A DNA stretch of 64,000 bases, taken from assembly GCF_029360725.1 (NCBI RefSeq), contig NZ_JARKMY010000002.1, positions 1,054,001 to 1,118,000 on the forward strand, given 5' to 3'. This stretch comes from Chryseolinea sp. H1M3-3 (lineage in GTDB: Bacteria > Bacteroidota > Bacteroidia > Cytophagales > Cyclobacteriaceae). The position numbers and the translations under genes are program-made. The notes below the pieces were generated by a model. That model saw nothing but the letters and a program-made list of their open reading frames with translations. It made no database searches and was not told the DNA's origin. Below are positions 9,383 through 62,458 of this stretch, in pieces. Positions within the stretch are counted from its first letter, which is position 1; each line of letters starts with the position of its first letter.

Positions 9383-9390
9383 AACTCCCT

Positions 9391-9422
9391 CAATTGCCCC
9401 GAGCTGAAGCTCGGGGCAATTG
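9391..9422. terminator. bidirectional terminator hairpin
   Basis: A perfect 15-bp inverted repeat (CAATTGCCCCGAGCT at 9391-9405, mate at 9408-9422) lies between two convergent genes. T-rich sequence follows only on the minus-strand side (AGTTTT), so it probably serves both directions with different efficiency. Confidence 0.7.
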
Positions 9423-9466
9423 AATATGAAATGATAAGGGCTTTATAGCTCATGTTCCTCCGGAAA

Positions 9467-58565: not shown

Positions 58566-58902
58566 TATATCCTTAAACGGTTGAATTGAACGAGCTAAAT
58601 GAATTTTTGTAGTTAAAATGCTTTCCTTAAATGGTAATTTCTATTGCCCACCATGCGTTTTACCACATTCCCAATATGGTCATCATCATTCCCCAGGTTG
58701 GAAGTAAAACATGCTACACGGAGTAATTTTGAATCAACTGGTTTGCAGAAAATAGGTTTTGTTTAAGGACGAAAATGGTCTAACCTTTTTTCTTCTTACG
58801 GAAGAAGCTCCGAAAGCCATTCATTAAACAAAATGCTATACGTTTTGGCAGGGTTTAATAGTTGTATACGTGATCTCGAAACATTCAGGATTAGAGATAC
58901 AT
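58566..58902. other. intergenic region, 337 bp, with a possible coding remnant
   Basis: A 49-codon minus-strand open stretch (58616-58762) reads KPIFCKPVDSKLLRVACFTS and continues with GNDDDHIGNVVKRM before a TAA at 58613. It has no start codon and no family I can name, so it may be a gene fragment or chance. The rest is AT-rich. No promoter consensus was found for the following gene. Confidence 0.3.
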
Positions 58903-60894
58903 ATGAAAATTTTTAAGACGCGCGCAAAACATAAAGAAATTGCCGAACAACTATTACAGCAAAATAATTTATTAAATGAAGCTGCTTCCTTTATGAAGGA
59001 AATTGAACGAGGTAATCTCGATATGCCGCTTTCGGAAAAAATGATACAAGCAACGTTGGGTAAATCTCTTCTCGGCATTAAAGCTCATTTGCAGGACATA
59101 AAGAAAGGCGATAACGAACGTAATTGGTTAAATACAGGGCTGGCAAATTTTTCAGATATCCTTCGAAACAAGGAATCGAAGAAATTGGCTGCACTATCAG
59201 ATGAGATTTTGAAAAATATCGTACAGTATCTAGGCGCTAACCAAGGGGCAATCTTTGTATTGAATGAAGAGGGCGAAGGAAAAGATCCATACCTGGAGAT
59301 GATCTCCTGCTATGCGTATGAAAAGAAAAAATATTTGGAAAAAAGAATAAATCTTGGCGAGGGGTTAGTAGGTCAGTGTGTACTTGAAAAGGATATGATC
59401 TATTTAAAGAAAACTCCCGATGATTATGTGCGCATCACTTCTGGTTTGGGACAGGCAACACCCAAAGAAGTTTTGATTGTACCGCTTCTCATTAATGAAA
59501 AAAGTTTCGGTGTAATAGAGCTTGCGTCCTTCGAAGAATTTCCGCCTTACAAAATAGATTTTTTGAAAAAGCTTTCAGAAAATATAGCCGCTGCAATTAA
59601 AAATGTAAAGGAAGGTGACCGTATACTCACCTTGCTCCACTCAAGTCAGGAACAAGCTGAGGAACTGAGAGCGCAAGAAGAAGAAATGCGGCAGAATATG
59701 GAAGAGTTACAGGCAACGCAGGAAGAAATGCAACGTAAAAGTGACGAAATCGCGAAGGCGTCAGCGGAGATGATCAGCATTAAAAATGGTATTGATGCTT
59801 CCATGGCGACGATTGAATTCACGCCTGATGGTTTAATATTAGCAGCAAATCCGAATTTTTTAAAAGTGACAGGTTATAAGATCAGTGAACTTAAGGGTCG
59901 GCATCATAAACAATTGGTTCCAGAAGAGATCATTGATTCTGATGATTACAAAAAATTCTGGAGCAGATTAGCGGCAGGTGAATCTTTTACCGGAATTTTT
60001 AAAAGGCTTTCTGCTGAAAGAAAAATCATTTGGTTGAATGCCGTATATAATCCGATTCTTGATGCAAAAGGCGAAGTAGCAAAAGTTGTCAAGTTTGCGA
60101 CCGACGTTACCGAGCAACAGGAACGTATTAGTGAAAATCAAGGACTAATAAGTGGTATGAATGCTACGATGGCGTTAATTGAGTTCACTCCGGATGGTAC
60201 CATTCTTACAGCAAATGAGAATTTTACCAAGGCAATGAAATACAGTCTTGACCAGATCAAAGGAAAGCACCATAGTAAATTTGTCCCTAAAGAAATATTA
60301 GACTCGCCTGATTATAAGACATTCTGGAAACGATTATCATCGGGTGAAGCTATCGCAGGCGTCTTTAAACGTATCAATTCGTCTGGCAAAACGGTGTGGT
60401 TGAATGCTATTTATAATCCTATCCTAAACGCCAACAAAGATGTCGTAAAGGTCATCAAATTTGCAACGGATATCACACAGCAACAGGAGCTGCTGGCCGA
60501 GATAAAAAGTACTATGGAAGGTATTGAGACAACAATGGCAACAATAGAATTTAAACCTGATGGAACCATCGTTAATGCTAATAAGCTATTCTTAACGTCC
60601 ATGAAATATACATTGGATGAAATTAAAGGCGAGCATCACAGCAAATTTGTTCCATTGGAAGTCAGGCACTCAGAAAGTTATAAACAGTTTTGGCCTACGC
60701 TGGCTTCCGGTAAACCTGTGAGTGGAGTGTTTAAACGTGTCGCTTCTGATAATTCGGTGGTATTGTTAAACGCTATTTATAATCCCATACTAGACACGGA
60801 AGGAAAAGTTATTAAAGTATTAAAGTTTGCAACAGACATTACTGCGTCCAGGAAAATGTTAGATGAGCTGGATTTAGAGAAGAATAAGGTTTAA
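58903..60894 (+). CDS. GAF and triple-PAS sensor lacking an output domain
   Basis: I start at ATG 58903 (MKIFKTRAKHKE); a GTG at 58870 is also in frame. The 663 residues comprise a short helical lead and a GAF domain (about 70-245). A coiled coil (EELRAQEEEMRQNMEELQATQEE) follows, then three PAS domains of the BdlA/MCP type (ATIEFTPDG, GRHHKQLVPEE, AVYNPILDAKGEV and VKFATDVT in each). The third ends 20 residues before the C-terminus (SRKMLDELDLEKNKV). There is no histidine kinase, methyl-accepting, GGDEF or HTH domain. It is likely soluble and works through another protein. Confidence 0.9.
   Translation: MKIFKTRAKHKEIAEQLLQQNNLLNEAASFMKEIERGNLDMPLSEKMIQATLGKSLLGIKAHLQDIKKGDNERNWLNTGLANFSDILRNKESKKLAALSDEILKNIVQYLGANQGAIFVLNEEGEGKDPYLEMISCYAYEKKKYLEKRINLGEGLVGQCVLEKDMIYLKKTPDDYVRITSGLGQATPKEVLIVPLLINEKSFGVIELASFEEFPPYKIDFLKKLSENIAAAIKNVKEGDRILTLLHSSQEQAEELRAQEEEMRQNMEELQATQEEMQRKSDEIAKASAEMISIKNGIDASMATIEFTPDGLILAANPNFLKVTGYKISELKGRHHKQLVPEEIIDSDDYKKFWSRLAAGESFTGIFKRLSAERKIIWLNAVYNPILDAKGEVAKVVKFATDVTEQQERISENQGLISGMNATMALIEFTPDGTILTANENFTKAMKYSLDQIKGKHHSKFVPKEILDSPDYKTFWKRLSSGEAIAGVFKRINSSGKTVWLNAIYNPILNANKDVVKVIKFATDITQQQELLAEIKSTMEGIETTMATIEFKPDGTIVNANKLFLTSMKYTLDEIKGEHHSKFVPLEVRHSESYKQFWPTLASGKPVSGVFKRVASDNSVVLLNAIYNPILDTEGKVIKVLKFATDITASRKMLDELDLEKNKV
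59806..60891 (+). repeat. three tandem PAS-coding repeats, 366-nt period
   Basis: Matching codons of the PAS start motif (ATIEF/ALIEF/ATIEF) fall at 59806, 60172 and 60538, exactly 366 nt (122 residues) apart. The copies are divergent but their length is strictly kept, including the TEQQE/TQQQE linkers. Confidence 0.9.
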
Positions 60895-60937: not shown

Positions 60938-60985
60938 AAACGATAATATTTAATAGACAGACTTGTCTATTAAATATTATCGTTT
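60938..60985. promoter_or_regulatory. 48-bp perfect palindrome, probable TetR operator
   Basis: Two perfect 22-nt arms (60938-60959 and 60964-60985) enclose a GACT centre. The core AGACAGACTTGTCT lies at 60955-60968 and resembles NemR-type half-sites spaced 6+4+6 (TAGACx-N4-xGTCTA). The palindrome covers the -33 element and ends right at the -7 element, so bound repressor would block RNA polymerase. It belongs to the TetR gene that starts 26 bp later. Confidence 0.75.
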
Positions 60986-60993
60986 TACATTTG
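60963..60993 (+). promoter_or_regulatory. tetR promoter (TTG and TACATTTG)
   Basis: TTG at 60963-60965 and TACATTTG at 60986-60993 are 20 bp apart and fit the Bacteroidota -33 and -7 elements (TTG and TAnnTTTG). The predicted start is near 61000, and CAGGAG at 61001-61006 precedes the ATG. Confidence 0.6.
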
Positions 60994-61011
60994 CTGCTGT
61001 CAGGAGTAAAT

Positions 61012-61581
61012 ATGAGTAAAGAAACAGGACCAAAAGACCGGATACTGGAAACGGCTTCGAGACTATTCTACAAGCAAGGTTACAACAATACAGGAATCAA
61101 CCAGATACTGGATGAGGCGAAAGTAGCAAAGGCGAGTTTGTACCAACATTTTGGGTCAAAAGAGGATGTAGGACTTGAATACCTGAAAGCTGCTCGCATA
61201 GAATGGTTCCAAGGTTTGGATAAATGGACCGGAAGTAAAGGTACGCCCTTGCAGAAACTTTATGCATGCTTTGACTTCCTCGAATATGCCCTTAGAAATA
61301 ACGAGTTTCGAGGATGCAAATTTATCAATATGTTATCAGAGTTAGCGGATGCTGGTCCGGCAATGTTAAAGCAAATCGTTGAGCATAAAGCTAAGCTGCG
61401 AGATTACATTAAAACATTTGTAAAGGACGCCATGATGGAAGACTCCGCAAGGATCGAAACTATGGGAGATTCAATTTATCTATTATTCGAAGGTGCTATC
61501 GTTGAATCGAAAATTTACAAGGATGCATGGCCCGTTAAGTCAGCAAAGAAAATGGTAAAAATGATATTGGAAGAAGCGTAA
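61012..61581 (+). CDS. TetR/AcrR-family repressor
   Basis: I choose ATG 61012, with CAGGAG 5 bp upstream, over an in-frame TTG at 60991. The 189-residue protein has the N-terminal TetR HTH (RILETASRLFYKQGYNNTGINQIL, AKVAKASLYQHFGSKEDV). The ligand domain has one Cys in NNEFRGCKFINML, which could sense electrophiles as in NemR. It should repress itself and the genes downstream through the flanking AGACAGACTTGTCT sites. Confidence 0.93.
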   Translation: MSKETGPKDRILETASRLFYKQGYNNTGINQILDEAKVAKASLYQHFGSKEDVGLEYLKAARIEWFQGLDKWTGSKGTPLQKLYACFDFLEYALRNNEFRGCKFINMLSELADAGPAMLKQIVEHKAKLRDYIKTFVKDAMMEDSARIETMGDSIYLLFEGAIVESKIYKDAWPVKSAKKMVKMILEEA

Positions 61582-61588
61582 AAAATTT

Positions 61589-61614
61589 TGTCTTTTAAAT
61601 AGACAGACTTGTCT
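61589..61614 (+). promoter_or_regulatory. second TetR operator copy, before the DUF1348 gene
   Basis: AGACAGACTTGTCT at 61601-61614 is identical to the core of the upstream palindrome and lies 20 bp after the tetR stop. An extra half-site TGTCT at 61589-61593 faces AGACA at 61601-61605. The surroundings (AAAT upstream, TTTCTATTTTAAA downstream) are only partly palindromic. It lies 43 bp before the next ATG. Confidence 0.65.
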
Positions 61615-61656: not shown

Positions 61657-62070
61657 ATGAAAGAACAGCGACACCCTGTACCACCATTCAATCAGCAGAC
61701 AGCACTTCAAAAAGTAAAGGCTGCCGAAGATGCTTGGAATTCGAAAGACCCCGATCGTGTAAGCAAAGCTTATACAACTGATACCGAATGGAGAAACCGC
61801 TCTGAATTTTTGAAAGGGCGGGACGAGGTGAAAGCTTTTCTCGAAAGAAAGTGGAGGAAGGAGTTGGATTATAAACTTAGAAAGGAACTTTGGGCATTCA
61901 CGGCGAATAAAATTGCCGTCAGGTTTGAATATGAATGGCATAATCCTGATGGCAATTGGTTTCGCTCGTATGGAAATGAGATGTGGGAGTTTGATGAGGA
62001 TGGATACATGAGTAGAAGGTTTGCAAGCATCAATGATCTATCAATCCAGGCTGCCGACAGACATCTTTAA
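61657..62070 (+). CDS. DUF1348/SnoaL-like protein
   Basis: The 137-residue protein matches DUF1348, an NTF2-like family ([69 protein letters not shown]). No signal peptide is present. It is the first gene after the second operator and is probably repressed by the TetR protein. Members are often annotated as stress-related proteins of unknown activity. Confidence 0.88.
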
Positions 62071-62095
62071 TATTTTTTACGAATACAAATACACT

Positions 62096-62458
62096 ATGAA
62101 AACAGCAATACTGGTTTTCTCTGATCCCAAGGCCGGGTCGGAGGAAGCACTCGGGCGGGTATTTAACGCCATGGCTACTGCATATGAAATTAAGAACGCA
62201 GGTGAAGAAGTCGGAATTTATTTTCAGGGCGCCGGTACCCGATGGCCCGAAGAGCTTCTTAAAAAAGATCATCCTGGACACAGACTATTTAGAGCGGTTC
62301 AGGATAACGTAGTAGGCATTTCGTGCGGTTGTGCCGATGTCTTTGGTGCTAATGCTTCCGGCTTCGACCTTATTACTGACAATAAGGTTCCTGGTACGAC
62401 AGGACTTCCTAGCGTTTATGCAATTCAAAAACAGGGTTTTAATGTATTGACTTTTTAA
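62096..62458 (+). CDS. DsrE-family protein
   Basis: I start at ATG 62096 (MKTAILVFSDPKAGSEEALG); the frame opens at 62021 but would overlap the upstream gene. The 120-residue DsrE-like fold has an EEALGRVFNAMATAYEIKNAGEEV core. Cysteines occur in ISCGCADVFG and could act in sulfur or redox relay. It follows the DUF1348 stop by 25 bp. A hairpin follows it. Confidence 0.85.
   Translation: MKTAILVFSDPKAGSEEALGRVFNAMATAYEIKNAGEEVGIYFQGAGTRWPEELLKKDHPGHRLFRAVQDNVVGISCGCADVFGANASGFDLITDNKVPGTTGLPSVYAIQKQGFNVLTF

Follow-up and report, generated by a model that had tools for sequence, protein, structure and literature searches.

Recurrent, unusually long perfect palindromes centred on a predicted TetR-family operator

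Introduction

Operators are palindromic because the repressors that bind them are dimeric. That the two halves of an operator keep matching as they drift in sequence is usually ascribed to selection alone. Sites longer than a single dimer would cover are known from QacR, whose 28-bp site is bound by two dimers.

In Escherichia coli, a stalled polymerase can template on the nascent strand and so convert an imperfect inverted repeat into a perfect, or more perfect, one; agents that crosslink protein to DNA raise this quasi-palindrome correction (PMC7202029). In RNA genes, a single template-switch event can make perfect stems (PMC8794818). In a survey of 118,019 genomes, perfect inverted repeats are enriched upstream of transcription starts, with bacteria preferring a 4-bp spacer (PMC13155455).

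Here we describe a perfect palindrome in the promoter region of a tetR gene of Chryseolinea sp. H1M3-3. All positions refer to the window, the whole 64,000-nucleotide stretch of DNA that was analysed. An earlier note on this window had drawn attention to the palindrome, arguing that its arms are far longer than a TetR dimer needs and that it could bind two dimers, form a cruciform or act as an RNA hairpin. We compared the locus with its relatives and with other genes, and find that a palindrome of this kind is real and unusual: its middle resembles an ordinary TetR operator, and what is extraordinary is the length, and the recurrence, of its perfect symmetry.

Results

Structure and genomic context of the palindrome

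The palindrome occupies positions 60938–60985 (48 bp) and comprises a left arm of 22 nt (60938–60959), an asymmetric 4-nt centre, GACT (60960–60963), and a right arm of 22 nt (60964–60985), none of them assigned to a strand. All 22 arm pairs are complementary (100%), confirming the mismatch-free arms described earlier. The arms are AT-rich. As a DNA strand, the palindrome has a predicted fold of −19.8 kcal/mol, compared with a mean of −3.15 for shuffled sequences (z = −10.28; 0 of 200 shuffles as good), and the region taken as RNA folds at −35.7 (z = −7.0).

We scanned three stretches of the same genome (C12:654001–1118000, C1:1–800000 and C2:1–800000), together 2.06 of 6.88 Mb (30%), for perfect inverted repeats with a spacer of at most 10 nt. 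The palindrome is the longest in these 2,064,000 bases, the next longest having arms of 19, 17 and 17 bp. The repeat that ranks second (L091:19866–19912; G000:C12:993866–993912) has 19-bp perfect arms around a 9-nt centre and lies between divergent genes, in a gap of about 1 kb. Another, at window positions 9390–9423, has 16-bp perfect arms between convergent genes and is probably a bidirectional terminator. Terminators between convergent genes were considered as the usual form of long repeat here; of the 16 perfect repeats in the own-genome sample whose arms reach at least 14 bp, they account for 7, which makes them common, not a majority. A search of the whole genome for the arm sequence with up to 3 mismatches recovered the two arms themselves and no further copy, ruling out a dispersed repeat, a MITE or an inserted element.

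Operator core, promoter and neighbouring genes

Downstream of the palindrome, on the plus strand, lies tetR (61012–61581), which encodes a TetR-family repressor of 189 residues with matches to the TetR_N helix-turn-helix (E = 5.9e-15; 55.2 bits, cut-off 24) and to TetR_C_13 (E = 7.4e-8; 33.2 bits, cut-off 27). The mechanical open reading frame begins at a TTG at 60991, inside the −7 box described below; we took the ATG at 61012 as the start. About 16 bp in the middle of the palindrome are predicted to form an ordinary operator of the TetR family. Its core, AGACAGACTTGTCT (O1, 60955–60968, plus strand), recurs as O2 (61601–61614, plus strand) between tetR and the next gene, where the arms are short (5 bp), and its positions are conserved in 63 related sites. 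A 17-bp core, AATAGACAGACTTGTCT, is found exactly twice in the genome, within the palindrome and at 61598–61614 in the gap between tetR and the DUF1348 gene, and these 17 bp are all that the two sites have in common. The remaining 14 core matches in the genome carry 3 mismatches each and are fewer than the 24 in a reversed control, so we treat them as noise.

The first gene past O2, which is likely to be regulated, encodes a DUF1348 (SnoaL-like) protein (61657–62070, plus strand; Pfam DUF1348, E = 3.4e-63). A DsrE-like gene, possibly the second of the operon, follows at 62084–62458 on the same strand (DsrE, E = 3.7e-4, just below the Pfam cut-off), and the genes between 61657 and 63951 are DUF1348, DsrE-like, PPOX-like and DinB-like. 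By eye, L011, L047, L017 and L018 likewise have a DUF1348-like protein after tetR, and L011 also has a DinB-like one there. Since the second operator copy precedes the next gene, TetR most likely represses both itself and the DUF1348 operon. Upstream of the palindrome, a PAS/GAF gene (58870–60894) runs in the same direction as tetR.

As the earlier note had read it, the palindrome sits over the tetR promoter, covering a −33 element and abutting a −7 element. A putative −33 element, TTG (60963–60965, plus strand), falls within the operator centre, and a putative −7 element, TACATTTG (60986–60993, plus strand), matches the Bacteroidota consensus TAnnTTTG, which sits at −12 to −5 in Flavobacterium (PMC9723704). 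The two are 20 nt apart, and the right arm takes up the whole gap from the operator centre to the −7 box, its last base being the one before TACATTTG, with 0 nt between. Both elements were found in 39 of the 68 relatives described below (one or both were not found in 29); the distance from TTG to TAnnTTTG is exactly 20 nt in 19 of these 39 and 18–23 nt in 32. Consensus match and conserved spacing thus place the operator across the predicted tetR promoter. From the position of the −7 box, a transcription start near 60998 is expected; the palindrome is wholly upstream of this point and should therefore lie outside the tetR message; the suggested RNA hairpin in that message is accordingly unlikely.

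Conservation of the operator in relatives

We searched for the TetR protein in overlapping sets of 59, 390, 295 and 395 genomes, with matches in 5, 24, 24 and 22 of them, the own genome counted each time. A scan of named genomes gave the loci L017 (Paraflavitalea, 67% identity) and L018 (56%); only these two of its 22 loci were used, the other 20 being distant (best identity at most 48%). In total, 70 loci were kept, and L041 was left out as a duplicate of L040. The gene start could be located in 68 (window included), with L040 and L215 lost at this step.

Most of the information across 63 related sites is held by about 16 positions (−7 to +8); these sites score at least 12 of 16 for the core and were selected for resemblance to it, which favours the core and leaves the flanks unbiased. 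A core-like site also follows tetR in 31 of the 68 relatives. Among the relatives the operator is seen in two registers that overlap and are offset by 2 bp, AGACA-gact-TGTCT and ACAGAC-tt-GTCTGT. In L011 and L010 the centre reads AGTC, the orientation opposite to that of most relatives, and both half-sites are altered symmetrically (GTACA/TGTAC and AAACA/TGTTT). L011 has no TTG at the operator centre on the tetR strand.

The nearest relative, L017, has arms of 9 bp, and its flanks do not align with those of the window. None of five other genomes of the genus has this gene at E ≤ 1e-20. Around the two other longest cases, relatives were found in 3 of 59 genomes (20-bp case) and 3 of 58 (23-bp case), own genomes included, none of them near enough to show the arm forming.

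Arm lengths compared with chance

Perfect operator-centred arms of 14–23 bp are present in 5 of the 68 relatives, the window among them: 23 bp in L011, 22 in the window, 20 in L060, 15 in L047 and 14 in L238, which belong to five genera. The L011 palindrome is the longest in its 336-kb contig and that of L060 the longest in the 20 kb around it. The outer arm sequences of these long cases are unrelated to each other. At the other end, 55 of the 68 relatives have arms of at most 8 bp. Besides the window, four genera thus carry long perfect arms at this operator, and it is the symmetry that recurs, not the sequence. The counter-case named in the earlier note, a 14-bp core that alone is conserved and protected, largely holds as far as conservation goes. 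Together, the 16 conserved positions, the 17-bp match at O2 and the short arms of most relatives argue mostly against an extended specific site. The palindrome is, as the earlier note argued, longer than one dimer should need. Since most relatives do without long arms, the operator should not need them.

Swapping flanks between loci gave an expectation of 0.06 of 68 loci with arms of at least 14 bp, and none of 20,000 draws reached 18. Arm length is not due to chance. Arms of 10–13 bp, found in 6 relatives with about 2.4 expected, are also in excess, although L235 and L237 belong to one genus, as do L226 and L231; with the longer cases, 11 of 68 relatives have arms of at least 10 bp against 2.4 expected. 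A strict all-or-none distribution, which we had considered, was dropped on account of the 10–13-bp cases, and the distribution is better described as heavy-tailed. The remaining 59 operators that were scored pair slightly more than expected outside the core, at borderline significance (0.371 against 0.353, sd 0.012; p = 0.064), with p = 0.22 for the nearest seven positions.

Six of the seven arms of at least 12 bp stop 0–6 nt before the −7 box and the seventh extends 7 nt into it, a closeness that long arms reach partly through length alone. In L060 (L132:8670–8713), the −7 box contained in the right arm has a mirror image in the left arm (AAACATA / TATGTTT). The TTG of this locus is 11 nt from its −7 box, so that its −33 element must be elsewhere or absent.

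Promoter palindromes at other genes

Among 1879 genes called in 2.4 Mb (own genome and L011 contig), 9 have a perfect repeat of at least 14 bp at the promoter, taken as 200 bp upstream to 60 bp inside the gene. Arms of at least 16 bp occur at 4 of the 1879, two TetR genes (window and L011) and two ArsR genes, both of which match HTH_20. One of the ArsR repeats (L094:705–746; G000:C12:1034705–1034746) has 17-bp perfect arms and an 8-nt centre directly before the gene; the centre runs on into a TATATTTG box, GCAAG-N6-CTTGC occurs twice in inverted orientation with the N6 mirroring each other too, and SRPBCC-like genes are neighbours. The other (L120:7894–7937; G020:C33:107894–107937) has 18-bp perfect arms on the promoter and an adjoining SRPBCC-like gene.

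With the index locus left out, arms of at least 14 bp are found in 4 of 67 relatives and 7 of 1877 genes (p = 3.5e-4), a comparison that ignores kinship. They occur in 0 of 50 TetR_C_13 paralogues (maximum 13) and 2 of 70 ArsR genes, neither of which differs significantly from the 4 of 67 relatives (p = 0.10 and 0.32, respectively).

Discussion

The arms of the long palindromes are free of mismatches, have no sequence in common, are missing in most relatives and are centred on a short conserved palindrome; in these respects they resemble products of inverted copying. We tentatively favour the view, short of firm confidence in it, that they arose by a template switch or quasi-palindrome correction seeded at an ordinary TetR operator of about 16 bp. 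Replication would stall at the operator palindrome or fold on it, and the polymerase would for a short time use one flank as the template for the other, so that a short operator became a perfect 48-bp palindrome. We infer that the bound repressor would be the stalling agent. The promoter-side arm could persist, since promoters tolerate variation in the sequence that separates −33 from −7. The mirrored −7 box of L060 points to right-to-left copying. If copying ran from left to right, selection to keep the −7 box would set an upper limit to the arm.

Several observations speak against copying. Its starting point is not represented among the relatives, as the gene is missing from the five other genomes of the genus and the L017 flanks cannot be aligned; the excess of 10–13-bp arms could equally come from gradual selection; the remaining 59 operators show borderline extra pairing; arm ends lie nearer to the −7 box than free right-to-left copying needs; and the contrast with TetR_C_13 and ArsR genes is weak. 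Our confidence in inverted copying is no higher because the intermediate arm lengths removed the all-or-none argument.

The alternative that we take most seriously is selection for DNA structure, in which a perfect palindrome would be maintained in the −33 to −7 interval since, extruded as a hairpin or cruciform, it adjusts promoter activity by setting TetR binding against supercoiling. The strong predicted fold, the AT-rich arms and the way in which most arms of at least 12 bp take up the interval as far as the −7 box would all suit it, and symmetry maintained with unrelated arm sequences is what selection on structure alone would be expected to leave. Arms of at least 14 bp are moreover confined to upstream sites (5 of 68, compared with 0 of 31 downstream core-like sites), a difference that is not significant (p = 0.15). 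Against it stand the 63 of 68 relatives that do without 14-bp arms. As selection for a spacer-filling structure gives the same picture of arm ends, we retain a hairpin or cruciform as an unlikely but serious reading. A further proposal, in which a pair of TetR dimers occupies adjacent positions as in QacR and the long palindrome is a double site of this type with high affinity, draws on the likeness of the N-terminal 77 residues of TetR to QacR (E = 1.1e-7; NemR and YxaF are among the matches) and on the two operator registers seen in relatives. Yet information drops past about 16 positions, whereas in a double site about 28 bp should be conserved. Because the long arms are, furthermore, unrelated in sequence, 22-bp arms cannot be a conserved specific contact, and a site of QacR length accounts for arms of about 14 bp at most; we consider extended protein contact improbable.

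Transcription termination offers another possible function, with an intrinsic terminator of the upstream PAS/GAF gene fused to the operator. That gene is co-directional, and a terminator scan calls both strands of the palindrome terminator-like (7 sites, compared with 2.4 in shuffles, sd 1.9). However, no T run directly follows the stem in L011, L060 or L047, the window arms are poor in G-C pairs (4 of 20 counted), and in the 23-bp case (L011/L123) the adjacent gene is divergent and leaves no read-through to stop. Read-through termination as a general cause fails for L011 and has little in its favour for L060 and L047, and we consider it to be a very doubtful origin of the window palindrome. 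Chance extension of the operator in AT-rich flanks is scarcely credible: flanks pair at 0.35–0.41 per position, at which rate 16 more pairs have a probability of 6e-8 to 6e-7, and the five long cases far exceed the flank-swap expectation. Occasional inverted-copy events fit better than either conserved contacts or a terminator. We regard the additional arm sequence as a probable by-product of DNA copying, with a function no more than possible.

A broader form of the copying hypothesis, to which we give less credence than to copying at this operator, is that the operators of autoregulated repressors seed palindrome growth in general. A bound repressor or an operator hairpin would stall replication, the flank would be copied, and TetR and ArsR promoters would repeatedly gain the longest perfect palindromes of a genome, limited by the −7 box. 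If operators do seed inverted copying, a single event would change both half-sites and add long perfect arms. A regulatory protein would then influence how the site it binds mutates and would hold both halves of that site identical, and comparative genomics would read operator symmetry, length and turnover differently. If the arms are selected instead, the promoter would be a rare natural TetR switch that depends on structure.

A search by title, largely of open-access literature, turned up no account of TetR operators on which long palindromes have grown. The closest described process is quasi-palindrome correction by template switching (PMC7202029, PMC8794818), likewise a mismatch-free repeat grown on a short one; the present case differs in being read from end states alone, at natural operators. 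The perfect inverted repeats surveyed across genomes (PMC13155455) are alike in upstream position and 4-bp spacer, and that survey ties them to no operator class, the terms operator, repressor, TetR and Bacteroid- being absent from its main text.

Among regulatory systems, the locus is most like the autoregulatory operators of TetR-family proteins such as QacR, NemR and YxaF/LmrA. It has in common with them a dimeric helix-turn-helix repressor adjoining its target gene and an AGAC...GTCT inverted repeat on the repressor's own promoter, with a second copy before the next gene. It differs in its 22-bp arms, which exceed both the 16 conserved bp and the 28-bp QacR site, and in that such long arms are found in a minority of relatives, each time with an unrelated sequence.
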